Of a stretch of DNA of 36,406 nucleotides, positions 579 to 23,569 are shown in pieces. The position numbers and the translations under genes were made by a program. Each line of letters starts with the position of its first letter. The stretch's first letter is position 1. The DNA is from Candidatus Omnitrophota bacterium (lineage in GTDB: Bacteria; Omnitrophota; Gorgyraeia; Duberdicusellales; Duberdicusellaceae), in NCBI GenBank assembly GCA_021159015.1, contig JAGGSQ010000067.1:1-36406 (forward strand), given 5' to 3'. Under the pieces are notes generated by a model that had not been told where the DNA came from, ran no database searches, and was given only the letters and a program-made list of their open reading frames with translations.

Positions 579-1811
579 TTAATCTAACGAGGATATATAT
601 TCTTCAAGACTCCTTCTGTATTCTGGCTTTATACCAGTCACTTTCTCCACTATACTACATACATCCTTATTCTTATCAACAACTTCAATCTTATGGCTAT
701 CAGGATCTAATTTAAATTTTCGTAATGCAGACTTAAAAAGCCATTTTAAGTAATAGTCAGATTCAGCAAAAGATACACCAATAATTACAATTTTACGTGC
801 TTCCTCAAGTTCTTTTCTCGCTAATGCCCATATAAATCCTAATTTAGGAAATCTCTCAAATGCTTTATACATAGTAGGTAAAACAATTGCCGGCCTGGTA
901 GCTGTCCCACATACTCTACAACTTGGAAAACTTCTAGATTGCTCTATAAATTCTTTTATCTCCACAGGAAAAAAACTAAAATGGTGCCTGCAATCTTCAT
1001 TCGGGCAATAAACCCAATTAATACTTCCATGTAGTTTTAAAAACACCCCTCTTTTACCTTCCTGTGAAGTATAATAAATCCATTCCGGCCGCGTCCAGGA
1101 TAATGGTTGGTTTATCAAAATTTGCTCCAATTTCTCAAGTAAAGGATGCGATTTACCTGAAATATTTTCCTTTTTGATAAATTCTTCCTTTTCTTTTTCA
1201 GATTTCTCTTCCCATAATCTTTGAAGTGTATCCTCAATTATAATATCGTAATTTAAAGTTATAACAGAATCTTGCGGCGTCAAATTCTGAAACAAAATTT
1301 TGTATTTTTCACTAGGATACAACTTATTTACTTTCTCCCGATGATATAGCAATAGTCTATTACTAATATATTTTATAAGTTCTCTCTGGGCTTCTTCTAA
1401 ATAATAAAATTTACTTTCTCCTAATTCGCCAAATTTGCTAACTGCCAAATCTAAAAAGGTAACTACTTGTTCCAAATTAAACTTTACTCCTTTTAATTTT
1501 TTCTCTCTTCTCTCCATAGCTTTCTCTAACTCTTCTGTTATTCTAATTATTGAAATATTCTCCGGATCATCCTTAAATTCATCACTTATTCCTTCGATAA
1601 TATCTTCCTTCTCTTCTAAAAATTTCTCTATTCTTTCCGGAAATATATCAAAATAATTTTCATAAGAAAAAGGTAAAAAATACTCTTCTAGAAATTTACT
1701 CAAGGATGGGAATTCTTTCACAGAAAGCTTATCGAAAAAATTACTCATCGTAGGTAATTGATATTCTGTTGCAAAAGATGCTCCAGCACCCAAGAAATAT
1801 ACTGTCCTCAT
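579..1811 (-). CDS. SIR2-like (sirtuin-fold) NAD-binding protein, probable defence effector
   Basis: This 410-residue protein has the SIR2-like fold signature. The N-terminal nucleotide-binding motif FLGAGAS covers residues 6-12. Asn-Tyr-Asp is at 187-189, KLHGS with the candidate catalytic His is at 259-263, and the late Rossmann motif GVSFAESD is at 345-352. Cys269, Cys274, Cys298 and Cys301 form a zinc-ribbon-like insert. SIR2-like proteins in bacterial defence systems cleave NAD+ to stop infected cells; that activity is inferred from the family. The ATG overlaps the stop of the DUF499 C-terminal frame by four bases (ATGA), so translation is coupled to that gene. A helical, Lys/Glu-rich stretch (60-110) separates the first motif from the core. 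It is the only island gene, with the methyltransferase, that looks intact. Confidence 0.8.
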   Translation of the reverse strand: MRTVYFLGAGASFATEYQLPTMSNFFDKLSVKEFPSLSKFLEEYFLPFSYENYFDIFPERIEKFLEEKEDIIEGISDEFKDDPENISIIRITEELEKAMERREKKLKGVKFNLEQVVTFLDLAVSKFGELGESKFYYLEEAQRELIKYISNRLLLYHREKVNKLYPSEKYKILFQNLTPQDSVITLNYDIIIEDTLQRLWEEKSEKEKEEFIKKENISGKSHPLLEKLEQILINQPLSWTRPEWIYYTSQEGKRGVFLKLHGSINWVYCPNEDCRHHFSFFPVEIKEFIEQSRSFPSCRVCGTATRPAIVLPTMYKAFERFPKLGFIWALARKELEEARKIVIIGVSFAESDYYLKWLFKSALRKFKLDPDSHKIEVVDKNKDVCSIVEKVTGIKPEYRRSLEEYISSLD

Positions 1812-2944
1812 TCCTCCACCTCAATCCCTAACTGCCTAAAGGTTTCTTTTATTTTATCCTCATAATCCTGTTCAGAGATTGCGCCTTCTTCGGCAGTAAT
1901 TTCAACATTTAATTTTTCAAATTTGCTTTGAAGCAAGTGCATCACCCCCATAATCCCGGAAACCTTGCCTTTAGGAAGATTAAACTTTAAATGCACTATC
2001 GTAAGTGCTTTGCTTGGCTCTGGTGTAGTTGTGATATTGTCCGTATCAATTTCTATCTCTTGTCCAGAAGCATCTTCCAAGGAGCCAGAAGAAACTGGCT
2101 CTTTTTTAGACTCCTGTTCTTCTTTGCATATTTTCTCATCAATAATAACCTCTTTATCAGAAAAACTAACCGTTGGTTTTTCTTTAAAATAGCGGCAAAT
2201 AGGTTCATCTTTCTCTAACTCCCCCAAGCCAAACAGCCCTTTATAAACCCCCTCTATAATGCCTTCTTCAAATACATTTTTATTCAATACTCTTGTCTCG
2301 CCGGGGGTCCTAAAAGAACTCTGGTAAATCTGGTTAGTGGGGCAATAAGTTTTCCCGGAAAGATACTTCTCGCGGATAACCAAAGGCGCTATTTTCTCAA
2401 GTATCTCGCCCTCAGCCCGCAGGGTTTCATATACGTCCTGGTCAATGTCCTTTTCCTCGCCATAAGTGGGAATTCCCAAATCAAGCTCTTTTAACCCTTC
2501 TTTCCCCGGCAAAATTATTAACCGGTATAATCTGCGTATATATTCGTTCAATTCTGAGTCTGCCTTCTTTATCTCTCTTAATACCTCTTGCTCCTGATCA
2601 GAAGTAAGCCTAAGATTTCCATCCTTTTTAATATACTCAAACCCCAATCTGCGCCTTAAAGCTTCGGCAAACGCCCCTCTTTCTGACTCTAACGGGCACA
2701 AAAAGACCAAGGTGTTTACATATACCCTGGGCGTCTTACCTTTATTTTTTAATATATTACTCATCAAACCATCATCACGCCGGCTTAAAATAACCAGTTT
2801 TAACTCTTCCGAATCAGAAATATTATTGCTTTTCTCTTCCCAAATAAAAACCTTTAAGGGGTGGCCTTTGATGTTATCTTCCAAAATCTCTTTTTCAAAA
2901 TCAGACACTTCATCCTTCTTAATATTCTCCATCTTAGTAAGCAA
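1808..2944 (-). CDS. DUF499 ATPase, C-terminal part downstream of an in-frame amber codon
   Basis: This frame is the direct continuation of the DUF499 gene that stops at 2963-2965. Only one codon, TAG, separates them, and the reading phase is the same. The sequence right after the stop (PNLYRILLTKMEN) fits the family's usual '..QPNL..' region following the 'LFYLHSSADKYFFN' motif, so the ancestral codon was probably CAG (Gln). Later it holds EELKLVIL, a Glu/Lys-rich linker near 270-300, and a C-terminal domain with HLKFNLPKGKVSGI. A separate start is possible at TTG 2944 or ATG 2932 but has no convincing ribosome binding site, so independent expression is doubtful. Joined with the upstream part, the gene would encode about 845 residues, within the family range. 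It overlaps the SIR2-like gene by 4 bp. Confidence 0.7.
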   Translation of the reverse strand: MLTKMENIKKDEVSDFEKEILEDNIKGHPLKVFIWEEKSNNISDSEELKLVILSRRDDGLMSNILKNKGKTPRVYVNTLVFLCPLESERGAFAEALRRRLGFEYIKKDGNLRLTSDQEQEVLREIKKADSELNEYIRRLYRLIILPGKEGLKELDLGIPTYGEEKDIDQDVYETLRAEGEILEKIAPLVIREKYLSGKTYCPTNQIYQSSFRTPGETRVLNKNVFEEGIIEGVYKGLFGLGELEKDEPICRYFKEKPTVSFSDKEVIIDEKICKEEQESKKEPVSSGSLEDASGQEIEIDTDNITTTPEPSKALTIVHLKFNLPKGKVSGIMGVMHLLQSKFEKLNVEITAEEGAISEQDYEDKIKETFRQLGIEVEE

Positions 2945-2962
2945 AATTCTGTAAAGATTAGG

Positions 2963-4345
2963 CTAATTATTGAAAAAATACTTATCCGCAGAAGAGTGCA
3001 GGTAAAACAATTTGCCTCTTAACTGCTCTACCGCTTCAGCCACCACAGAGGCGGGATTTCCTATGGTAGTAGCCAATCTTTTAATATCAAGCATAGTTAC
3101 GCCGTGTTCCTGCCCGCCGGAGAAAGAATGCATAAATATAGTAGTTGATGCGCGCCGGCCAAGGCCTAACCCCTGATAGGCGTCTCCCAATGACATATCT
3201 ACTTTCTTAGAGCCGCTGGTTTTTCCTGTAATATCTGACGCTATTACTCCGTTAAATTCGGCCCCGATATGCTTTAGAAGTTCCTGGCGGATTTCTTGAT
3301 TGCCAAGGTCAAAATCAGCCAAGCTGATATAAGGATTATGGCTTTGCTTTAAAGAGTAAACCACCAGAGAAAGAAGCCGCAAAACTCCTCTTGTCCTCTG
3401 AAAGGTAGGAAACGTCCCCCAGTAATGATATAAAACATCTATTACTTCCGGCAAAAACGGATAGGAGTCAAGAAATCTCTTTTTATACTCGTTTGGCTCA
3501 ATACCAAGAGGAAAAAGTTTTTCTCTCTCTGCATAATCAAAAAAACCTGAGACAACCTCTTTGGCTTCATTTTCGTCTATACGGCTGAATAACCTTCTTC
3601 TAATAATATTGGAGATTTCATATTCCTGCACCGGCGTATAGATTTTCTCAAGCCGGCCGGACACCTTTTGCAACTGCTGATAGAGTTTTTCTGCGCTGGC
3701 ATCATAATGCTCAATAATACTGGAAGGCAAAGTCACCACCAAACAGGCTTTCTCCAAAGCAGAAACAATCTCTGTAAGTTCCTGTATAAAAGCAATAGTT
3801 TGAGAAGCCAATGTGCTTTTGCCCACGCTTACACCTGCGGCTTTGGTAGCGTATTCCAATACCTCATCCATTAAAATAAGAACCGGCTGGTTAGAATAAA
3901 GAAGTTCTCTAATTGCTTCTTTCCCCGGGCTTGTATCGCCCGATAATTTCTCTATTTTTCCTGTTAACTGCTTCTCCAAAATTCCCCACAGCGTATCTTT
4001 AGCGCTCAGGCCTGTGCCGACAATCACCGCCCTTTTTGCGCCCCATTCTTTTGCCTTATGATACATTGCAATCAAAGAATGCGTTTTTCCGCCGCCAAAA
4101 GGAGTTTGTATCTGAATAATAGGGTCTGCGCCCTGGCCGGCTAATCGCTTTTTGATAACTGATAAAAGATTGCTCAACCCTTCGGTTAAATAAGTCTTAG
4201 AAAAGAATATATCAGCATCCTTATATTCCGCCGGGCCTCTTTGCTTATGCACTTCCCACAAATCTGCGGCAAAAACATCCATTGTCAGCCGGCCTTCTAA
4301 AATATCCTTATGAGGAATAGCTATAGTATGAAATGCTTTCATCAT
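2963..4345 (-). CDS. DUF499 family AAA-type ATPase, N-terminal part (ends at TAG)
   Basis: The 460-residue frame carries the ATPase half of a DUF499 protein. It has a Walker A motif TPFGGGKTHS at 81-90, a Walker B-like LILMDE at 156-161, and VVTLPSS as a likely sensor motif near 204-210. AGGAGG sits just ahead of the paired ATG ATG at 4345, which supports the start. DUF499 ATPases occur beside DUF1156 methyltransferases and SNF2-type helicases in archaeal and bacterial defence islands; their exact step is unknown to me. The frame stops at a TAG at 2963-2965 exactly where the family continues, and the following codons stay in frame with the next feature. TAG ends other genes here normally (AbiEi, FmdB, oppA), so this looks like a nonsense mutation rather than a recoded codon. 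The methyltransferase ends 25 bp upstream. Confidence 0.8.
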   Translation of the reverse strand: MMKAFHTIAIPHKDILEGRLTMDVFAADLWEVHKQRGPAEYKDADIFFSKTYLTEGLSNLLSVIKKRLAGQGADPIIQIQTPFGGGKTHSLIAMYHKAKEWGAKRAVIVGTGLSAKDTLWGILEKQLTGKIEKLSGDTSPGKEAIRELLYSNQPVLILMDEVLEYATKAAGVSVGKSTLASQTIAFIQELTEIVSALEKACLVVTLPSSIIEHYDASAEKLYQQLQKVSGRLEKIYTPVQEYEISNIIRRRLFSRIDENEAKEVVSGFFDYAEREKLFPLGIEPNEYKKRFLDSYPFLPEVIDVLYHYWGTFPTFQRTRGVLRLLSLVVYSLKQSHNPYISLADFDLGNQEIRQELLKHIGAEFNGVIASDITGKTSGSKKVDMSLGDAYQGLGLGRRASTTIFMHSFSGGQEHGVTMLDIKRLATTIGNPASVVAEAVEQLRGKLFYLHSSADKYFFNN

Positions 4346-4370
4346 TTACCTCCTACAATAGTTCTTTCTC

Positions 4371-7300
4371 CTAAAAAAATGTCTGTTGACCTATATCCTT
4401 TCCTGCAGAATCTGCTTTTAATCTTTCTCTTCCTGCCAAAAACCCGTCCAACAGCTTTTTTTCTTTATCCTCTTTCGGCAAGGTCTCAGATATTGCCTGT
4501 GCCACCCGCCAAAACGCCTCTTTTGCGCCAAAACCAGAAACCTTAAGCAAACTAACTAAATCCTGCTTTTGGCTCTTCTCCCACAAAAGAAGGCCTTTGT
4601 GTAAAACATCTATAAGTTCAGTCTCGCCAATATCGTCTATCTTTCTCTCCTGCGGGCCTAATACCTTTATAAACTCAGACTGCTTTTTGATAAAAGTCTT
4701 TTTATTCCACAGATTAGCCAGCTCTATCCCACAGCTATGGGCAATCCTATTTGCCTCGTCAAAGTGCACTTTGGCTGCTCCATAATTCCATCTAAATAAT
4801 ACATAAAATCTGGTTAAATCAGAAATCTCACCCGCAAATCCATTGTGCAAAATCTGGCGCACCGCATAATCAGTGGCAATCTTGCGCACATCCTCCAATA
4901 ATCTGTCTGCCCTTATAATATTTCCCTCATAATCCATAACTTTTTCGTATTTGCCAAACACCTCAATTGCCGAGCCAATGGCTGAGATAAAAAAGTCTGC
5001 CCCGCCTATTCCCTCAGACCAGAGTTTTTCCAGTTTTTCATTAAGGTATTTTTTTAATTCTTCTTTTACTTCATTGTAAAAGGCAGTCTTCTCTCTTTTC
5101 ATCTTTCGGGCAATAATGTAAATTGACGACATTAAAGACGCTGTTCCCTGAGCATTTAGTTTTTCTTTCATTTCAGTATTTATCGGCCAAGCGCCGGTCA
5201 TAACTAATCCTGAATCAAGTAAAGAATTTATAAGCGTCTCCCAGCCGGAAGTGGACTTATGGGCATAAACTATTATGGCAATTCCGTTTGATTTTAAAAC
5301 CCGCCTAATTTCCTGAAAGGATTTTTTTAGCATATTTTCAAAAAAAACTTTAGCTTTATTCTTTCCGTTTTGCCTTACTGTATCAGAGATAATCTCTTGA
5401 GATTTGGGGGTTAAAGGAGTAGAAAATAAATCAGAATGAACATTTCCCAAGCTTCGTTTCAGCCAAACATAAAAAAAATCTGATAAAACTGCATATGAAA
5501 TATTATCATAATACGGCGGGTCAGTAAAAACCGCATCAAAGAAGTTGTCCTCATAGGGAAGTTGCGTGGCGCTTGCCTGCGTCACGGTAGTGACAGGCAG
5601 GGAGGAGTGGGAGAGAGTAGCTGAATTTCTTATCCCATTTAGAATTTTAAAGGAAGTTTCTGCCACTCCCATAAGATTTGACCAACTTGTGCTAATCCCT
5701 GATATAGGATTGAGTTCAAAATAATCCCATGTCATTTGTATGGCTTGCCTTCCAACAAAAGCATTTATGACCTGAGTAGTATCCACTTTCCACGTGCAAT
5801 TTGAACTTGTAAACATCGCTAGTTTATCTAATGTCAACCCCAAATAACTCACCACAACCTTTGCATATTCAGAATCTAAACCTTCTCCTATCATCTTCTT
5901 ATACGCAAGGCGGACCTTCTCCACAAAAGTAATCAATGCCAGTTTCTGGCGGGAATTGAATAAGTCTCCCCATCTATTAATTCCATATCCCCTTCCTGCA
6001 ACTGTAGTAGGATCATTTTTATCCATTTCCTCATCCGGCACAGGCTCTATTCCCCATTCATTTCTTAATTTTTCTTGTTTCTCTTTTAGATATTCCTCTG
6101 CCTGCCTGAAAATTTCTAAATCTTCTTCTTTTGCCAACCTGTATTTTTTGCCGCTTTGTCCAGATTTATGCAAAACAACTGCTATCATTCGCTGGCCGGA
6201 CTTTCCTTCCTGAAAAAGCCTTCTTGTGGTTTTAGCATCTATTACTGCTCCACATACAGGGCAGGTTACAACCGCGCGCGCAATTGTGCCCTGCTCTGGG
6301 TTAAAATCTTTTGGCATTTTTTCATACCTGCCTGCCGCGATATCTGAAGTGCAGGTAGAACCTGCGCCTACTATTTTAAATTTAATCTCCTTCCCTTCTA
6401 CATAAGGAAATAACGCAACCTTTTTATTTGCCTTTTTTGCCAGCCAGAATTGCCGCATTAAAGGAATTTCTGCCCCGCAGGAGGGATTCTGGCAAGGTAA
6501 AGTGCGCGCCCAAATGTATCCAACAGGAATTGAGCCGCCTGCCTGCCGCGCCGCAAGTTGACCGGCATTATATTCGCGTTTTAACCGTTTACACCCAAAT
6601 CCTGTTTTTAAATCTTGCTCTCTTTTTACAGCCTTTTCTCTTGTCTTAAATTCTTCAAAATGAATCAGTTCTACTGGTAATCTTGATTTAGTCCAAGATA
6701 CTTCTCCTTTGTTATGTTCACCTAACCTACGCGGTATATTATCTGTTTGTCCGATATAAAAACTATTGTCCTTACACTTTAAAACATAAACCCAATAAGC
6801 ATTTGGGCGCGGCGCAGGCAGGTCTTTATCCTCAGGATAAAATTTGCCTATTTCCTTTTTTGCCTCTTCCAAAACCCAACTTCCCCATTTTTTAACATCC
6901 TCCAAAAGAGGATTTACCTCCTCTTCTACTTCTAAAAAACTTCCCTCAATTTTTTTCTTTCTTTTTACCTTTTTGCCGTATTTCTGCGGATATTCCAAAG
7001 TGCATTTTTGAATTAGCACTGCCACAGGATTATAATCATTAGAATAAACCTCACACCCAAGCCTTAACGCCTCTAAGGGAATTGCCCCGCCTCCGCCAAA
7101 AGGGTCTAATACGCGCGGCGGCTTTCCGTTATTTGCCTTTAGAATATTTTTACGCGCTTTTTCTATCATTGCAGGATTAAGAGAATTTTCCCACTTAGAA
7201 AAAACAATAATAAAATTACGTTCTTTATTCCACTCTTCTTTATTTTTTGGCGCAGGTATAAGGGCAGCGTAATTGGTTGCCCGTGATGAGGCAAGCGGCC

Positions 7301-7424
7301 GGCGCGCCCACCAGATATGAAGGGTCGAAATATGCCCGTGCCTGATATTCTTCTCCCGCGCAGATTCAACACTTACCTCTTTTACCGGAAAACTTACTTC
7401 AATGAAACGTTTGTCTGTAGTCAT
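4371..7424 (-). CDS. DUF1156 DNA methyltransferase with an in-frame GIY-YIG domain insertion
   Basis: The product (1017 aa from ATG 7424) is an adenine- or cytosine-specific DNA methyltransferase of the DUF1156 family. The N-terminal [12 protein letters not shown] and HIWWARRPL motifs mark DUF1156. The SAM-binding motif DPFGGGG is at 107-113 and the catalytic DPPYYDN at 635-641. Cys pairs at CQNPSC and CPVCG suggest a zinc site. Residues about 205-298 interrupt the family and form a GIY-YIG nuclease domain (separate entry). I chose ATG 7424 over TTG 7442 because AAAGGTG lies eight bases before it. The gene shares the operon with the DUF499 ATPase (25 bp on) and a DUF3883 helicase (upstream), a set seen in DISARM-like defence loci. 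It probably marks host DNA as self or acts in interference; whether it still folds around the insert is unknown. Confidence 0.88.
5574..5599. repeat. Palindromic hairpin inside the methyltransferase gene
   Basis: TGCCT-GC-GTCAC-GGTA-GTGAC-AGGCA forms a ten-pair stem with a two-base bulge and a four-base loop. It encodes the stretch [11 protein letters not shown] just before the [21 protein letters not shown] motif. The flanking GCAGGCAAG/CAGGCAGG bases recall the cassette ends at 6539 and 6821. It may be a short palindromic element inserted in frame. Confidence 0.45.
6327..6339. repeat. Solo copy of the GIY-YIG cassette end sequence
   Basis: The 13 bases CCTGCCTGCCGCG are identical to the downstream terminus of the GIY-YIG cassette (6538-6550). 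They lie 200 bp away in the same gene, where they encode part of [10 protein letters not shown] 13-base identity inside one gene is unlikely by chance, so this may be a remnant of an earlier insertion or a target-like sequence. Confidence 0.4.
6539..6821 (-). mobile_element. GIY-YIG nuclease cassette with inverted-repeat ends, inserted in the methyltransferase
   Basis: Inside the DUF1156 frame lies a complete GIY-YIG domain: VYVL at residues 212-215, YIG at 223-225, the Arg at 232/233, EHN at 236-238, and the likely metal-binding Glu at 269 in the KREQDLK segment. Its ends carry imperfect inverted repeats. On the minus strand it opens CTGCCTGCGCCGCGCC (6821-6806) and closes GGCGCGGCAGGCAG (6552-6539). 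The two ends are complementary apart from a two-base gap. Removing about 282 bp (94 codons) would rejoin ...PEDKD with [12 protein letters not shown], which is the expected continuous family sequence. The unit thus reads through in frame, ends included. This looks like a small mobile cassette whose nuclease may drive its own spread; mobility is inferred. Confidence 0.7.
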
Positions 7425-7440
7425 AAATTCCGCACCTTTC
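7418..7440. repeat. Leader copy B flanking the AbiE module
   Basis: The minus-strand sequence GAAAGGTGCGGAATTTATGACTA just before the methyltransferase closely matches that before the AbiEi gene (9233-9256). The match runs beyond the ribosome binding site and start codon, including TGCGGAA and TGACTA. The pair flanks exactly the two AbiE genes. Confidence 0.4.
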
Positions 7441-7442
7441 AA

Positions 7443-8021
7443 TCAGTCAATTAGCATAGCCTGGAGCCAGTAAAAATAGCTTTGCGGGTTTGCCTTTTTT
7501 AAGCCCTCAAGGAGCTGATATTTGCCCGAAAGAGGCTTTCCTTTAATTAAGTTATAATCTACAGTTTTTGATATCCTCTTCTGGGCTGTAGCAAGCAGTC
7601 TACATATATAAGCAATTTTAGAGAAAGCGACTTTCAAATCTGACTGAGTGTATTTTAACATCAAATGATTGCTGACTCTTTTCAGGCCGCTGTTAATATG
7701 CTCGATTTCCTTATAAGTGTTATTTGCCCCTTTTAGCAAATACTGGCAGTATTTAAAGGATATATCTAGAATATTTTCTACTATTTCTTCTGAAGAATAC
7801 CGGGTTTTTCTGAAAGTATTTTCCAGTTTAACAGTATTTTTAAATGTTTCTCGTATATCTTCAATATTGTCTATATATTCAAATAATGCCCCCAAATCAA
7901 CAACCTGTTTAACAAATTCCATTTCTCTTTTAGCATTTAAGGAAATCCCTATGCTATTAGAAGCTATGGCTGTTAATTTATCTCCCAATAAACCTTCAAT
8001 AGTGGGAATCTTAACTTTCAT
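7443..8021 (-). CDS. AbiEii-type nucleotidyltransferase toxin, C-terminal part (frameshifted)
   Basis: This 192-residue frame is the C-terminal helical half of an AbiEii/AbiGii nucleotidyltransferase; KIPTIEGLLGDKLTAIAS is the family's mid-protein signature. The frame is open upstream of the ATG at 8021 and reads ...YILLDIIFCKPPYFKLVKK, which is the expected continuation of the N-terminal part encoded at 8096-8488 in another frame. Adding one base near 8112-8117 (AACAATATATCC to AACAATTATATCC) would restore a 348-residue protein. The half beginning at 8021 has no ribosome binding site of note and lacks the catalytic domain. It ends 18 bp before the methyltransferase start. In the AbiE system this protein is the toxin; here it is probably inactive, unless the missing base is an assembly error. 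Confidence 0.75.
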   Translation of the reverse strand: MKVKIPTIEGLLGDKLTAIASNSIGISLNAKREMEFVKQVVDLGALFEYIDNIEDIRETFKNTVKLENTFRKTRYSSEEIVENILDISFKYCQYLLKGANNTYKEIEHINSGLKRVSNHLMLKYTQSDLKVAFSKIAYICRLLATAQKRISKTVDYNLIKGKPLSGKYQLLEGLKKANPQSYFYWLQAMLID

Positions 8022-8095
8022 AGATGATTTTAAAGAAAGAGGGCAGGCTGACAGGCTTTTTTTAACCAGCTTAAAATAAGGGGGTTTACAGAAGA

Positions 8096-8488
8096 TTATA
8101 TCCAGAAGGATATATTGTTTAGCCCGGGCATAATGAGATTTATAATAAAATTTAAAATGTTTTTAGGTATGTTTTTCTTATTATCGCGCATATCCTCTGC
8201 CACATCATAAAATCCTGATTCAGAAGCCGCCTTTTTTAGATTACCTTCAAGCGAATATTTATCTTTGGGATTTAGAATGATATCAATATCTATAGAAAAA
8301 CGGATGGGAGGAAATATATGCAGAAGAATAGATGTTCCGCCTTTAAAAATCAAATCGGGGTAGTGTTTTAACATTCCATCAAGCAGATTAAAAGCATAAA
8401 CTGCCTTTTCAAAAATACCCCGATCGCGGAATTTTACTTTTTTACGAAGTTCTTCTAATGTTTCTTTTTTAATAATTGTTTCTTGCAT
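8096..8488 (-). CDS. AbiEii-type nucleotidyltransferase toxin, N-terminal catalytic part (frameshifted)
   Basis: The 130-residue frame holds the nucleotidyltransferase core: FKGGTSILLH at 48-57 is the GG[S/T] nucleotide-binding motif, followed by RFSIDIDI with the metal-binding Asp-x-Asp pair. AbiEii enzymes add nucleotides to RNA, notably tRNA ends, and block translation in infected cells. The start lies one base after the stop of the AbiEi gene, so the pair is co-translated in antitoxin-toxin order. After residue about 123 the reading frame is lost, giving the aberrant tail ISFWI and a TAA. The correct continuation is present in the next frame (see 7443-8021), pointing to a single missing base. 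Confidence 0.78.
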   Translation of the reverse strand: MQETIIKKETLEELRKKVKFRDRGIFEKAVYAFNLLDGMLKHYPDLIFKGGTSILLHIFPPIRFSIDIDIILNPKDKYSLEGNLKKAASESGFYDVAEDMRDNKKNIPKNILNFIINLIMPGLNNISFWI

Positions 8489-8489
8489 A

Positions 8490-9239
8490 CTATTGTTTCT
8501 TTATGACTTTTGCCACTTCATCAAAGTAAGCGCCAAAGGTCATATCAGTAAGTATGTCATTTTCAATAAGTTGCAAAAACAGCGCTTTAAAACATTTTCG
8601 CCTTCTACTATAGCCGGCAACTGTGCCAATATTAATTTTATATTGCAAACAAAGCTCTCTCCAGATTTGCCAGTAGTCAGCCTCAGACATATACCTGTAT
8701 AAATTCAAATCTACAAACATATCTACTAAAATCTTTTCCAAAGAGGCCATTATCCCCTTATGAGGAGAACGCCTTACCATCTTGCGCACCACCACAGGGT
8801 TAGAAGAAATGGACAGCTTCTTAAAGAAATTTCTGCTACGCTTCTCTATAAAAACATCCCGATAATTCTTAGAGACAGCTTCAGAAAAGGGGTAAAGCAG
8901 TTCTTTTCCTGTTTCTATAAAAGTCAAATAATGAGCCTGCGTATGATGATATAAAGATTGCAATTGGCGCGTATCCCAGATTATAAAATCGGCAAAAGGG
9001 AAATCTTTCTTAAGCAATCTTGCTATTGTTTCGACTCTGCTTACAGAAAAAATCTGAAATTCTCTCTTTAGGGTAGTGTAAACACCGCGGCCTGCCTCAA
9101 AAATAATGCCTTGTTTTTTAAAGGTTAAAAGATAATTTTTAGCGAGTCGGATATCAATTTTCTTGTTTTTTACAAGAGAACGTAGAGAAAAATATTTGTT
9201 TTTCTTTATATAATCAAGAATACTCTCTTTGATAGTCAC
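8490..9239 (-). CDS. AbiEi-like antitoxin / transcriptional regulator with winged helix
   Basis: The 249-residue protein starts with a winged-helix DNA-binding domain (residues about 1-65, ILDYIKKNKYFSLRSLVKNK through GIIFEAGRGVYTT). It continues with a domain containing DFIIWDTRQLQSLYHH, as in the AbiEi-like proteins that pair with AbiEii nucleotidyltransferases. It directly precedes the toxin gene with one base between, the standard arrangement. AbiEi proteins repress their own operon by binding inverted repeats and counter the toxin. The start is GTG at 9239 with AAAAGGA about ten bases upstream. The stop is TAG, which shows that TAG terminates translation in this island. It appears intact although its toxin is broken, which is the tolerable combination for the cell. 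Confidence 0.75.
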   Translation of the reverse strand: MTIKESILDYIKKNKYFSLRSLVKNKKIDIRLAKNYLLTFKKQGIIFEAGRGVYTTLKREFQIFSVSRVETIARLLKKDFPFADFIIWDTRQLQSLYHHTQAHYLTFIETGKELLYPFSEAVSKNYRDVFIEKRSRNFFKKLSISSNPVVVRKMVRRSPHKGIMASLEKILVDMFVDLNLYRYMSEADYWQIWRELCLQYKINIGTVAGYSRRRKCFKALFLQLIENDILTDMTFGAYFDEVAKVIKKQ

Positions 9240-9256
9240 TATTTCCGCATCCTTTT
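9233..9256. repeat. Leader copy A flanking the AbiE module
   Basis: The minus-strand sequence AAAAGGATGCGGAAATAGTG followed by ACTA spans the helicase stop and the AbiEi start. About 18 of 22 aligned positions equal copy B at 7418-7440. This suggests the AbiE pair was inserted between helicase and methyltransferase with duplication of the junction. Confidence 0.4.
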
Positions 9257-11669
9257 AAACCTGCTTTTCTCCCATTCTTAAAATATCCTCGCCATTAATT
9301 AAATAACGTACTATCTCTATTCTTTCCTGAGCCTTAAGATTACGAGCAGGATTCTGCACTATGAGCAATTGGAGATTTTCTGAAGCATTGAAAACCACAT
9401 AAAGATAATAATCATCGCCGAATCTCTGGGCCTTAAACCATTCGTTTTGAGTCAAGGCAATATCTCCTGTCTTTGCGCGCGCCTTTACTTCAATATAGCG
9501 GATATTGCCCTGAGTATCTTTAGAGCGGATATCAAAGCCCAAATTCTCTAAAGAAACATCTTCGGGGAATCTCCCCTGTTTCTTTTCGTATTCAAAGGCA
9601 GCCTGCATACCGATTTTTTCTATTTCTTCATCACTTGCCATAAAATCTTTCTTTTCCCTGGGCGGCTCTACCCTAATAATGCCTACAAACCTAGGCATAT
9701 TCATAGTAAGATTTTTCTCTTTTTGTATCTGGTCTTGTAAATCCGCCTTGGCCTTTTCGTATTTAGACTTGCGCTCCTGTTTATTGTATATGGCAAGGTC
9801 AACGTTTTCTCCCTTCTCCTTGCGAAAATTCAATTTTATCAATTCCCCGTCTAATTTCATTATAAAATGCTCTAAAGATTTAATTCCGTATTTTTGTTTA
9901 ATCTCAGCCTGGCGCTTGCGTTCTTTTAGAATCTCCTCTTTATATTCTTCAAGTTTATTGATAGCCGAATTTAGGCTCTTGTTTTTTAATAAATCAACAT
10001 CTACCGGCTCCGAAGTATTAGGAGAACCTTCTGCAAAATCCCATATAATAGAAGGGTCAACTGGCATTATTTTATCTGTATCAGTTAAAGGAATATAAAA
10101 CGCAAAAAGCCTCCTGCCGGCAATTTTGCCGCTTCCGTCCTGCAATTGGCCTTCATAAAAAATAATATAACCGTCTTTTCTGCCGTCGGGATCAATAAAA
10201 ACTGCGCCTTCCAAAAGGCTCCGGGAAAATTCGCCTTCTATCCATCTCATAACTGCCTCAAAAAGAGGGTGCCCAAAAGAGACGAACTCTACATCTTGAT
10301 TCTTAAAAGCAACATCCTTATCAAATGTTGCTCTGGAATATTTCTTATAAACTGGCCCGAGAGATTTCTTGAACACGTCGTTATCTGCAATCTTGCGAAT
10401 GTCATAAGGAACAGAATCTATCGCTAACAAGTTGTTTTTCAACTCCCTTACTTTCCCGCCGGCTTTTGTAAATGCTTTTTTGAAAAAACTTTCCGTATAC
10501 TCAGGAATAAGGCGGTATTCTTTTGCCTGCTGCTGCATTTCCTTTATTCGTGTATAATCAATAAAGCGCGTAGCAAGGCTTTCATCTAAATTGTCTCTCA
10601 CTTTGGCAATATATTCTTCGTCAACACTGATTTCTATCTCTTTCAATATCTCATCAACATTGCGGGCACTGGCAGCAGCTTCTAATAAAAGCTGACTAAG
10701 GTTTTTATCTGAAAAAACTTCTCCCAAACAATCAAAAACCTTATCTGAGCCTAAAGCCTTTCTGATTTCTTCTATTTTCTTAAATAGTTTATTGAATACT
10801 TTCCCTTCGCGCGTATCTTCAGCCACAAGGTTAAATATAAATACTTCCTTATCCTGCCCATAACGATGAATTCTGCCCATTCTTTGTTCAAGCCTATTGG
10901 GATTCCAGGGAATATCGTAATTAATCATAAGATGGCAGAACTGAAGATTTATACCTTCGCCGGCGGCCTCAGTAGCGATAAGAATTTGCGCTTTTTCCTT
11001 AAAAATATGCTCTGCTTTTATTCTATCTGCAAGCGTCATACCGCCATAAATAGTAACAGTGGAATATCCCCATTGCTTAATCTTTTTCTCAAGATAAAAC
11101 AAGGTATCCTTTGATTCTGTAAAAACAATTATTTTTTTATCCCCGGGTTCTGTATATTTCTGGCTTAATTCTTCCAGCGAATCTTTTAAGCTTTTTAACT
11201 TTATTTCATCTTCATCTTCAATAATGCTTTCTGCCTTAGTAATAAGTGCGGAGATGGTTTCTATTTCTAACTTTAATTCTTCCTTAGTCTCGGCAACACT
11301 TAATGTCTCCCAAATTTCTTCCTGTTTCCATCTGTTTTCCTCATTTAAATCTTCTATCTCGTCCATATCTAACAATTTAAGTTTTTCGTCATGAATCTTC
11401 TCGCTTTTCTCTATTAAATCCTGAAGTCGTTTTTTTCGTCTCTCTAAAGACCTTAAAAGGGCATAAATACTAGAAGCCATTCTTCGCTGTAAAATCACCA
11501 GAGCAAAGGCAATGTTGCGTTTTTTATCTTTGCTTAAAGCCAGATTGTATTGCGAACTAACATAGCGCGATAACTCATTATAAAGGTCTTTTTCCTGCGG
11601 CGAATTAGTCCCCAAATTAAAAGTTTTGGTTATTACATACCGTGGAAGAAAAAGCGGTTTTTCCCTCAA
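9255..11669 (-). CDS. SNF2-family helicase, C-terminal part with DUF3883 domain (frameshifted)
   Basis: This frame continues the helicase begun at 12606. It contains a helicase C-terminal domain: KKIIVFTESKDTL (178-190), ILIATEAAGEGINLQ (229-243) and NRLEQRMGRIHRYGQ (258-272, motif VI). A Lys/Glu-rich coiled region (75-175) lies between the two ATPase halves. The last 120 residues, with LGFDIRSKDTQGNIRYIEVK, are a DUF3883 domain, a nuclease-fold-like module often fused to defence helicases. The family sequence FEGKPLFLPRYV is recovered only by dropping one A from the A5 run at 11658-11662, so this part is not translated from the true start as the sequence stands. The full gene would encode about 1116 residues. 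It resembles DrmD of class 1 DISARM in layout, but I would not assign that name without alignment. Confidence 0.8.
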   Translation of the reverse strand: MREKPLFLPRYVITKTFNLGTNSPQEKDLYNELSRYVSSQYNLALSKDKKRNIAFALVILQRRMASSIYALLRSLERRKKRLQDLIEKSEKIHDEKLKLLDMDEIEDLNEENRWKQEEIWETLSVAETKEELKLEIETISALITKAESIIEDEDEIKLKSLKDSLEELSQKYTEPGDKKIIVFTESKDTLFYLEKKIKQWGYSTVTIYGGMTLADRIKAEHIFKEKAQILIATEAAGEGINLQFCHLMINYDIPWNPNRLEQRMGRIHRYGQDKEVFIFNLVAEDTREGKVFNKLFKKIEEIRKALGSDKVFDCLGEVFSDKNLSQLLLEAAASARNVDEILKEIEISVDEEYIAKVRDNLDESLATRFIDYTRIKEMQQQAKEYRLIPEYTESFFKKAFTKAGGKVRELKNNLLAIDSVPYDIRKIADNDVFKKSLGPVYKKYSRATFDKDVAFKNQDVEFVSFGHPLFEAVMRWIEGEFSRSLLEGAVFIDPDGRKDGYIIFYEGQLQDGSGKIAGRRLFAFYIPLTDTDKIMPVDPSIIWDFAEGSPNTSEPVDVDLLKNKSLNSAINKLEEYKEEILKERKRQAEIKQKYGIKSLEHFIMKLDGELIKLNFRKEKGENVDLAIYNKQERKSKYEKAKADLQDQIQKEKNLTMNMPRFVGIIRVEPPREKKDFMASDEEIEKIGMQAAFEYEKKQGRFPEDVSLENLGFDIRSKDTQGNIRYIEVKARAKTGDIALTQNEWFKAQRFGDDYYLYVVFNASENLQLLIVQNPARNLKAQERIEIVRYLINGEDILRMGEKQV

Positions 11670-12606
11670 AATCTTTCAAATCTTCTTTAACTCGCCTGAT
11701 AAACAAAGGGTTATCTTTATTCTTGATTGATTCCTGAACCATTTTTGCCGTAGCAAAAAATCCCGGTTCTAACAAATCAAGAAATAGCCTGAAATTTTCC
11801 GAATCGCCCTTATGAGGAATGGCGGTTAAAAACAACAAATGGTCGCTTATTTTTGACAATACCTCTCCCAGTTTATATCGGGCAGTCTTGTCCAATTGTC
11901 CTCCATAACGATAAGCACTCATTTTATGCGCCTCATCAACAACAATAAGGTCAAAATGCACCGCAGATATAGAAGGCAGAATATCGTCTTGTTTTAAGAA
12001 ATCAATAGAGGTAATTATTTGATTTTCTCTTTGCCATACATTCTCGGCATAAAAAGAATGCAAGATTCCTCTGTCAACAGCAATAAAAGATTCCTCAAAT
12101 TTATCAGACAATTCCCTTATCCATTGGTCTCTTATATGGCCGGGGGTAACTATTAATACCCTATTTACAAGATGGCGCAGTTTAAGTTCTTTAATAATTA
12201 ATCCTGCCATTATTGTTTTCCCGGCACCAGGGTCATCGGCAATAAGAAATCTTATTCTGGGCAATTTCAACACCCGCCCGTAGACTGCCTCTATTTGATG
12301 AGGAAGGGGGTCTATTTTTGATACATTCATCGCCAAAAGCGGGTCATACAAAGAAGCAAAACGGTAGCGTATATTTTCTAAAGCCAAGAAAACCTGCCAA
12401 GCCTCCTGCGAGAATTTGGTATTTTGTATTTTAATAAAAGATTCGTTTAATTCTCTTTTGGGAACTAGCTGGTCAACAGAATTGTGCGAATTCAGCATTA
12501 TCCCAATTATATGAAGATAATCCCCAACTTCTTCAACATGTTTTATCTCCACAGGTTCCGGCCAACGATAACTTTTAACAATATCGCCTTTTTCCATACT
12601 ATACAT
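11617..12606 (-). CDS. SNF2-family helicase, N-terminal ATPase part (frameshifted)
   Basis: Residues 123-131 (ADDPGAGKT) are Walker A, DEAH at 224-227 is the Walker B/motif II box, and LTAIPHKGD at 260-268 is motif III. Earlier, residues 96-105 (SKIDPLPHQIEA) form the Q-motif region. These mark a SNF2/RapA-like DNA translocase. The frame goes wrong after RRVKEDLKDFEGK, where five A residues (11662-11658 on the minus strand) replace the expected four. The product then ends in an unrelated 12-residue tail. Thus the ATPase lobe lacks its second half. It is the first gene of the island operon; the start may be ATG 12606 or 12597, and neither has a strong ribosome binding site. Motor proteins of this kind in restriction-like systems translocate along non-self DNA. 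Confidence 0.8.
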   Translation of the reverse strand: MYSMEKGDIVKSYRWPEPVEIKHVEEVGDYLHIIGIMLNSHNSVDQLVPKRELNESFIKIQNTKFSQEAWQVFLALENIRYRFASLYDPLLAMNVSKIDPLPHQIEAVYGRVLKLPRIRFLIADDPGAGKTIMAGLIIKELKLRHLVNRVLIVTPGHIRDQWIRELSDKFEESFIAVDRGILHSFYAENVWQRENQIITSIDFLKQDDILPSISAVHFDLIVVDEAHKMSAYRYGGQLDKTARYKLGEVLSKISDHLLFLTAIPHKGDSENFRLFLDLLEPGFFATAKMVQESIKNKDNPLFIRRVKEDLKDFEGKTAFSSTVCNNQNF

Positions 12607-12732
12607 ATCACAATCTTACTGCTAGGACCCCTAAGCTCATTAATGTTTTTATTTTACCTCTCTTCCTTCAGACTTTCCAGCCATTTTCCCGCCTCTTTTA
12701 CATCCTAAGTTTATATACCAGATTATTCTCTC

Positions 12733-12769
12733 ATTCGTGCGAATGTGCGAATATTAAATCTATTAAATC
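12733..12769. promoter_or_regulatory. Operator-like palindrome and tandem repeats upstream of the island
   Basis: ATTCGTGCGAAT (12733-12744) is a perfect 12-base palindrome. Its right half is repeated as a tandem octamer GTGCGAAT-GTGCGAAT (12737-12752). It is followed by ATTAAATC-T-ATTAAATC (12753-12769). Such clustered symmetric repeats ahead of a first gene suit a repressor site, for example for the AbiEi-like regulator encoded downstream; the assignment is inference. Confidence 0.3.
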
Positions 12770-12785
12770 CGCCCCTTTCTGCCAA

Positions 12786-12855
12786 CTGCAACATTTAAGG
12801 ACGTACCTATTTGGTTGCAGATGCAACATATAAGGACGTACCTGTATGGTTGCAG
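12786..12855. repeat. Two exactly tandem 35-bp hairpin repeats
   Basis: Copies at 12786-12820 and 12821-12855 abut without a spacer and agree at 31 of 35 positions. Each is bounded by TGCAAC and GTTGCA inverted ends and shares the core AAGGACGTACCT, whose AGG/CCT can pair around ACGTA. Mismatches fall mainly in the arms. The symmetry and boundaries suit REP-type elements mobilised by a Y1 (RAYT) transposase, none of which is in the window. Confidence 0.7.
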
Positions 12856-12900
12856 TTTAAACCTTTTTTGTCCACGCGGCAGGTGGGCAAGGTTGGTGGG

Positions 12901-13413
12901 TTATATAACGCCGCTTAAGAATAAAGCGACAAGGGTTTTAGAATCTAAAATTTCTCCGCGGCGCGCCTTTCTTTTAACCTCTCTAAGAGTCAAAACCTTT
13001 ACTTCTATAAGCTCGTCTTTGTCGCCCTGCGGCTTATGCTCAAGCTTTCTAAGACAGCTGGCCTTATAGACAGTCATTTTTTCCGTGCTGTAGCCGCAGG
13101 CAAGATAGATAAGGCCGAGTTTTTCAAAACTGCGGGCAGAAAATCCTATCTCTTCTTTTATCTCCCGCCGCACACAGCTAAGAGGTTTTTCGCCTTTTTC
13201 TAAGGTGCCGGCGGGGATTTCCCATACATATTCTCCTACTACGGGGCGGAACTGGCGGATAAAAATAATCTGAGAGGCAGACAAAAAAGGCAGGACAGCT
13301 ACTGAGCCGGGATGTTTTACATACTCTACTTTTGCCTTATAGCCGTTAGGGTAAAGGCTTTCTTTTCCGTAAACCCTAAGGAATCTGCCCGAAAACAAAA
13401 GTTTACTCTTCAT
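12901..13413 (-). CDS. NUDIX hydrolase, ADP-ribose pyrophosphatase type
   Basis: The 170-residue protein carries a full NUDIX box, GTLEKGEKPLSCVRREIKEE plus IGF, with the metal-binding REIKEE core. EYVWEIPAGTLE just before it is the usual signature of ADP-sugar pyrophosphatases (ADP-ribose or GDP-mannose to sugar phosphate plus nucleotide). KHPGSVAVLPF and QFRPVVGEYVWEIP complete the family pattern. Its start overlaps the last ABC ATPase gene by 11 bp, so it is translationally coupled as the final gene of the long metabolic operon. The exact substrate cannot be told from the sequence; given the GalT-like genes in the same operon, a sugar nucleotide is possible. Confidence 0.88.
   Translation of the reverse strand: MKSKLLFSGRFLRVYGKESLYPNGYKAKVEYVKHPGSVAVLPFLSASQIIFIRQFRPVVGEYVWEIPAGTLEKGEKPLSCVRREIKEEIGFSARSFEKLGLIYLACGYSTEKMTVYKASCLRKLEHKPQGDKDELIEVKVLTLREVKRKARRGEILDSKTLVALFLSGVI

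Positions 13414-20855: not shown

Positions 20856-23569
<2,714 letters not shown>

Follow-up and report, generated by a model that had tools for sequence, protein, structure and literature searches.

A head-to-tail pair of REP-like hairpins beside a defence island in an Omnitrophota genome, and an HTH-tailed Y1 transposase as its probable cognate enzyme

The window, a stretch of 36,406 nt, is contig 9 (C9) of a Candidatus Omnitrophota genome of 1.18 Mb in 70 contigs. It contains a pair of 33-nt imperfect palindromes at 12787-12854, arranged head to tail on the plus strand with 2 nt between them. Unit 1 (12787-12819) consists of a TGCAAC/GTTGCA outer stem, an AT-rich internal loop and an AGG/CCT inner stem. 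The spacer (12820-12821) is GA, in the place of which the other six pairs of the genome have GG, CC or GC. Unit 2 (12822-12854) has the same orientation as unit 1 and carries the variant arms ATATA/GTATG, which are common to all three pairs of its type and therefore count as one inherited variant and not as independent evidence. The trinucleotide GTT adjoining unit 2 (12855-12857, plus strand) is seen at 13 of the 16 clusters described below; read on the strand of transposase sense, it is an AAC foot at the 5' side. Alignment as a direct repeat (12787-12821 and 12822-12856, period 35) bears out the 35-bp repeat with 31/35 identical positions (89%) that had been described in an earlier note on this DNA. 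For its statement that a spacer is lacking to be right, the two bases GA between the 33-nt palindromes proper have to be included in the unit.

The pair follows a Nudix gene (12901-13413, minus strand), whose stop codon is 46 nt away, and 180 nt beyond the pair is the start codon of the N-terminal part of an HmaA/DrmD-like defence helicase (11617-12606, minus strand). The placement between a metabolic operon and a defence island proved correct, with glycolysis, ABC-transporter and Nudix genes on one side and the defence island on the other. Two further palindromic repeats occupy the same intergenic stretch. One, ATTCTC..GAGAAT (ATTCTCTCATTCGTGCGAATGAGAGAAT, 12725-12752), is found at 7 places in the genome, also at L026 23 and 401 and at L039 1370. 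The other (TGTCCACCCGGCGGGTGGACAAGG, 12869-12892) is present as a diverged copy with 3 mismatches and occurs at 8 places in the genome, one of which adjoins the third Y1 transposase of this organism. The intergenic stretch is thus a mosaic of three palindromic repeat families.

The defence island itself (window 1808-12606, minus strand) comprises an Hma-like system, recognized by HmaA, HmaB and HmaC profiles, together with AbiEi and AbiEii genes, and is followed by a SIR2-like gene at 579-1811. Three of its genes are broken into two reading frames apiece, the two matching consecutive portions of a single profile: HmaA (11617-12606 and 9255-11669), HmaC (2963-4345 and 1808-2944) and AbiEii (8096-8488 and 7443-8021). 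Decay, assembly errors or something else may be responsible. Residues 215-279 of the HmaB-like methylase (4371-7442) form a GIY-YIG domain, seemingly an endonuclease module that has been inserted.

As single-stranded DNA, unit 1 is predicted to fold with -6.5 kcal/mol (z -3.7; none of 200 shuffles equal) and unit 2 with -6.4 kcal/mol (z -2.7; 2 of 200 equal), while the pair as a whole can form a single, longer structure at -16.3 kcal/mol (z -3.8; none of 200 equal). The further pairing of ATA with TAT in the arms of unit 2, noticed earlier, is real and adds three base pairs with a 1-nt bulge, but it leaves the energy unchanged. The units do not belong to a known RNA family at the gathering threshold of Rfam, at which the window gave no match; on 14 other loci only tRNAs and one tmRNA were found at this threshold.

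When the genome was searched with the pattern TGCAACATNTAAGGNNNNNCCTNTNTGGTTGCA, allowing up to 3 mismatches, the 33-nt unit was found at 23 places, and the reversed pattern, used as a control, at none. Likewise, the exact 12-nt core has 15 copies versus 0 for the reversed pattern. The genome-wide count proposed earlier therefore reveals a dispersed unit, be it of modest copy number. The core is AGGACGTACCT in 15 of the 23 units, AGGACAGTCCT in seven and AGGTCTGTCCT in one. The units are grouped in 16 clusters, nine singles and seven pairs, and all seven pairs are built head to tail with a 35-nt period and a spacer of exactly 2 nt (GG in three, CC in two, GA and GC in one each). No unit of opposite orientation was present in the retrieved stretches around the 16 clusters. 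The dimers at C4, in the window and at C15 are identical at 68/68 or 67/68 positions, and their right flanks differ, which suggests that the pair spreads as one piece. Fourteen of the 16 clusters lie outside any open reading frame of at least 80 aa; the exceptions are a unit over the stop codon of a transposase gene at C17 and the pair at C4, which lies under a 95-aa frame. An imperfect palindrome of 20-40 nt that is multi-copy and mostly intergenic answers to the description of a REP, and the present unit, with 33 nt and 23 copies, does so.

The surroundings of these copies are themselves repetitive. Within 150 nt, 12 of the 16 clusters have a flanking repeat in common with another cluster; four share nothing, among them the unit over the C17 transposase stop codon. 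The left flanks of the window pair and of C15 are each 98.6% identical to that of C38 over 69-70 nt, matches that stop a single base short of the unit. On the right, the flanks of C3 are 98% identical to those of C14 over 50 nt starting at the unit, and those of the C17 pair and C46 87.5% over 32 nt. For none of the 16 clusters does another match on both sides all the way to the unit; the match of C3 with C14 does extend to both sides, but its left part is shifted by 12 nt. We read these flanks as a mosaic of short repeats, to which the copying of longer stretches must have contributed. Composite elements are known for REPs, and the mosaic flanks can be likened to them. The single units at L021, L024, L034 and L038 (C5, C14, C34 and C3), loci with tRNA or tmRNA genes, adjoin a longer repeat with a CCAGAC..GTCTGG hairpin, which they abut at differing points. 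At C4, a genome assigned to another family has the dimer and a small ORF downstream of it in common with this one, with 92.7% identity over 260 nt (L019 1569-1827; L047, reverse strand). This is more than expected at that distance and points to either horizontal transfer or misplacement. No orthologous empty site was found in the flank comparisons. The only other genome found with a unit beside shared flanks, G019 from the same order, has an occupied site, so that the insertion boundaries rest on comparison within the genome.

Outside its own genome the repeat is scarce. The unit pattern was found in 4 of 58 genomes, own included, and in two of these (G012 and G054) only as variants with 2 mismatches. 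Among the genome contigs searched, from which records of the own genome may have been excluded, the exact pattern occurs in one named contig, that of Ca. Omnitrophica bacterium 4484_171; viral contigs gave no exact match.

The enzyme that is likely to be connected with the unit is encoded on C17. It is a Y1 (HUH) transposase of 297 aa, consisting of a Y1_Tnp domain and a C-terminal HTH (HTH_38/HTH_23 at residues 262-289), and its translation contains the HUH motif NHLH and the motif YIHLNP. Its best NCBIfam match is REP_Tyr_transpos, with 67.8 bits and thus below the cut-off of 80, and compared by sequence with solved structures, its Y1 part weakly matches 4er8 (TnpAREP; E 0.0048). One unit (21355-21387) spans the stop codon of the gene and a pair (22351-22383 and 22386-22418) lies upstream of its start; the three units, one 3' and two 5', have one and the same orientation. 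Here the unit flanks a low-copy Y1/HUH transposase gene, as is characteristic of REPs. The earlier note had pointed to an adjacent Y1/RAYT transposase: a Y1 gene bordered on both sides by the unit does exist, though on another contig and not beside the window copy. Together with the dispersal of the unit, it supports the REP/RAYT reading put forward in that note. The gap between the C17 transposase and the gene after it, a DUF5674 gene (L016 642-1061, a 140-aa frame), is so short that the hairpin unit takes up all of it. The unit also falls within the DUF5674 frame; as the Pfam match begins only at residue 31, the true start may lie just past the unit.

Three genes of the genome are recognized by Pfam as Y1_Tnp, and a protein search of the genome with this transposase gave four matches, with C17 and C2 among the matches listed. 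The C2 transposase, the next best own match to C17 among them (44% identical), goes with a different hairpin: the perfect palindrome TGCAACATTTTGCTTCGTAAGCAAAATGTTGCA is present on both sides of the gene and at 5 places in the genome. The third Y1 gene (C26; 221 aa, L018 about 1268-1993) has no HTH match and is bordered, as seen by eye, by the GC-rich palindromes CACCTGGCAGGTG and GTCCACCCGGCGGGTGGAC. The latter repeat is the one found at 8 genome places, including window 12869-12892 with 3 mismatches.

Homologues of the C17 transposase are present in 116 of 147 genomes of the class at E <= 0.001, and in 23 of 285 genomes of the phylum at E <= 1e-40, all 23 belonging to the same class. As far as these searches reach, the transposase is broader in spread than the repeat, which is narrow. 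The 5' and 3' flanks were compared for the best 30 homologue loci and the own C2 gene (L017), with L060 and L061 included and L064 and L070, at contig ends, left out; the 99% level of 580 shuffles, a score of 19.0, served as threshold. All 20 testable close homologues, out of 21, have a matching, lineage-specific hairpin on both sides (joint score 21.0-52.5), while among the nine testable distant homologues only L073 (27.5) and L075 (20.5) exceed the shuffle level. A held-out test used 17 of 18 new loci, as the remaining one (L101) is once more the C2 gene of the own genome; 12 of 14 close homologues passed and none of 3 distant ones did. L100, L102 and L103 represent additional copies in genomes already used. 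The two held-out loci without a hairpin pair have a stop inside the gene (L088) and a 5' flank of only 179 nt (L097). When flanks of other genomes serve as the comparison, the separation becomes less clear and several close homologues are not distinct (p up to 0.42), because hairpins are similar from one lineage to the next. In an unrooted tree, which carries a long-branch warning, the 21 close homologues form one side of a branch with support 100/100; the group label had been set by similarity rank, before the hairpin test.

The orientation of the flanking hairpins is variable. For 17 close homologues compared, the better alignment was direct in 10 and inverted in 7, so the direct arrangement of the own genome is not a rule. 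In five of six other genomes searched, cognate hairpins are found at places other than the transposase locus as well: counting the flanking two, there are 12 places in G051, 9 in G129, 10 in G135, 5 in G054 and 4 in G056, and none in G087, for which the pattern did not fit that genome's hairpin. More distant Y1 homologues (L069, L071, L076, L089 and L091) have short inverted repeats instead, for example AGGGGACGGTTCT, GTGTCAGTCCTCGAC and GGGGTCAGGTCTC, i.e. TIR-type ends.

A further argument comes from the arms of the hairpins. Twenty-seven hairpins of 33 nt from 15 loci can be aligned without gaps as 15 base pairs and a 3-nt loop. This set contains only 33-nt hairpins and often both sides of one gene, so that its rows are not independent. 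Outside it fall L050, L051, L052, L055, L056 and L066, the 3' hairpin of L054 and the other hairpins of L049; six close homologues are left out of the covariation count, their hairpins being weaker or of other lengths. Columns 5-7 (ACA) and 27-29 (TGT) are fixed or nearly so, and the arm tips and inner stem vary in a compensated manner. The covariation score is 0.652 versus 0.189 in shuffled alignments, none of 500 being as high, and at most 0.160 when the partners are slid. Cells changed on both sides number 105 versus 34.7 in shuffles. Taken alone, the 12 pairs in which both sides have changed do not stand out, as 99 of 500 shuffles reach that number. The idea that the structure is kept despite sequence change is therefore weakly borne out within the window's genome and strongly between lineages. 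The family of the window keeps the 33-nt plan, but its stem is broken by the AT-rich internal loop, which is partly closed in the three copies of unit-2 type. This loop may be likened to the bulge retained in the E. coli REP, which according to PMC8266576 is needed by its enzyme.

Taken together, it is highly probable that the two units in the window, a head-to-tail dimer of 33-nt hairpins, represent a mobile repeat of REP type that is non-autonomous, with the HTH-tailed Y1 (HUH) transposase of C17 as its putative cognate enzyme. Hairpins of one kind accompany one gene, their arms covary, and near-identical copies lie in different settings; that the hairpin is bound, cleaved and moved by the Y1 transposase is inferred from the IS200/IS605 and TnpAREP families. 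In these, a hairpin of single-stranded DNA is bound, nicked and moved by the Y1 enzyme (compare PMC6006769 and PMC8266576). By analogy, the hairpin would fold when its strand becomes single-stranded, for example as lagging-strand template. The Y1 transposase would then bind the folded hairpin and nick beside it, and the hairpin or dimer would be transferred to a new site that is likewise single-stranded. No dedicated host function is expected at the window locus; at most, the pair would stabilize the 3' end of the Nudix transcript.

A role in RNA is the starting point of one alternative, in which the hairpins are kept because they act as a transcription terminator or 3'-end stabilizer in the transcript of the Nudix/transporter operon. 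Their position 46 nt downstream of the Nudix stop codon and a strong RNA fold on the minus strand (-30.3 kcal/mol, z -5.3) are in line with it. However, the region 12780-12860 contains no intrinsic terminator (a GC-rich stem followed by a T run) on either strand, so that this candidate was rejected and the terminator alternative of the earlier note finds no support. Since the same dimer also occurs in other contexts, and the hairpins around the transposases would be left unexplained, this alternative is very improbable.

The mosaic flanks count against mobility. With 12 of 16 clusters sharing flanks, part of the spread may be due to mosaic copying, and it could be argued that all units were carried along passively inside larger composite repeats that were recombined or copied without a transposase. 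The matches of the window pair and C15 with C38 on the left, of C3 with C14 and of C17 with C46 on the right, and the 260 nt downstream of C4 with 92.7% identity to a relative, are what such a process could leave behind. Against it, no cluster pair matches up to the unit on both sides, even C3 and C14 being 12 nt off on the left, and four clusters, including the unit over the transposase stop codon, share nothing. The hairpins around the transposases and the covariation would moreover need another cause, and passive spread as a full explanation is considered unlikely. To the same degree unlikely is that the hairpins flanking the transposase serve solely to regulate it, for example by repression through the HTH, the dispersed copies being relics. 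The enzyme does have an HTH, and the positions of the hairpins, on or close to the stop codon on the 3' side and upstream of the start on the 5' side, would suit regulatory sites, but the near-identical dispersed copies and dimers argue for recent spread. Regulatory and mobile roles of the hairpins could also coexist. The reading of the pair as a REP-type mobile repeat tied to the C17 enzyme is preferred.

With this reading, a REP/transposase lineage is added beyond the well-studied proteobacterial ones. For the interpretation of genomes it means that intergenic palindromes, here beside a defence island, can be explained as transposase-linked repeats rather than as terminators. Some thirty natural enzyme-hairpin pairs (32 loci passing) are available, and because they differ mainly in arm tips and inner stem, a recognition code that works without a GTAG guide could be tested by hairpin swaps. 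No paper on REP-type repeats in Omnitrophota was among the matches listed in searches of the open literature, and a word search did not find Omnitrophota named in the main text of RepRanger (PMC12306157).

Three known systems come close to the present one. Elements of the IS200/IS605 type (IS608, ISDra2) also have hairpins at both gene ends, which in the own genome are of the same orientation, and the Y1 HUH chemistry may be expected to be the same. They occur, however, as near-identical copies of the whole element, whereas the next best own match to C17 is 44% identical among the matches listed. The C17 enzyme also differs by its long C-terminal extension. TnpB was not matched in any of the three frames neighbouring the C17 transposase; the two with Pfam matches are Glyco_transf_9 and DUF5674, and one has no match.

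With REP/REPIN sequences and their RAYT (TnpAREP) enzymes of groups 2 and 3 (subclasses 2.2 and 2.5) and of subclass 2.4, the window family has in common that its members are short intergenic palindromes and that each repeat family is tied to the low-copy Y1 gene it flanks; bulged or perfect stems and several families per genome are seen in both. The differences are the length of 33 nt, the C-terminal HTH of the transposase, and the foot. Canonical REPs carry a GT[AG]G foot. The window family has AAC instead, and other lineages often TAA or AA; when abutting positions are counted, GT[AG]G stands next to none of the 16 clusters on either side.

The TIRYT/TIRtron group (Y1 subclass 2.1; Di Nocera 2013, Quentin 2018) shares the C-terminal HTH and repeats near both gene ends. 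According to PMC3733652, TIR families, for example in Stenotrophomonas maltophilia, can have self-complementary members, dimers and clusters. Their TIRs are inverted and many read GGGGWSAS, whereas the own C17 gene is flanked by hairpins in direct orientation without GGGGWSAS, and most of the clade is set apart by the constant 33-nt plan and covarying arms. As set against Table 1 of PMC6006769, C17 has the C-terminal HTH and the Y[IV]HLNP motif of subclass 2.1, but its HUH motif is NHLH where NHVH or NH[YF]H is given. The resemblance of the C17 clade to this subclass in Y motif and HTH is taken as a lead only. According to the same 2018 survey (PMC6006769), neither automatic nor manual search found REP-like sequences with Y1 subclasses 2.1 and 2.3. 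We lean slightly towards regarding the large HTH-tailed Y1 clade of Omnitrophota as a separate type of REPtron, in which each enzyme would have its own coevolving hairpin, mostly of 33 nt and without GTAG guide, the mobile unit in the genome of the window being the head-to-tail dimer. If this is true, it fills the gap reported for subclass 2.1 and reveals a passage between TIR-type and REP-type elements inside one transposase family.
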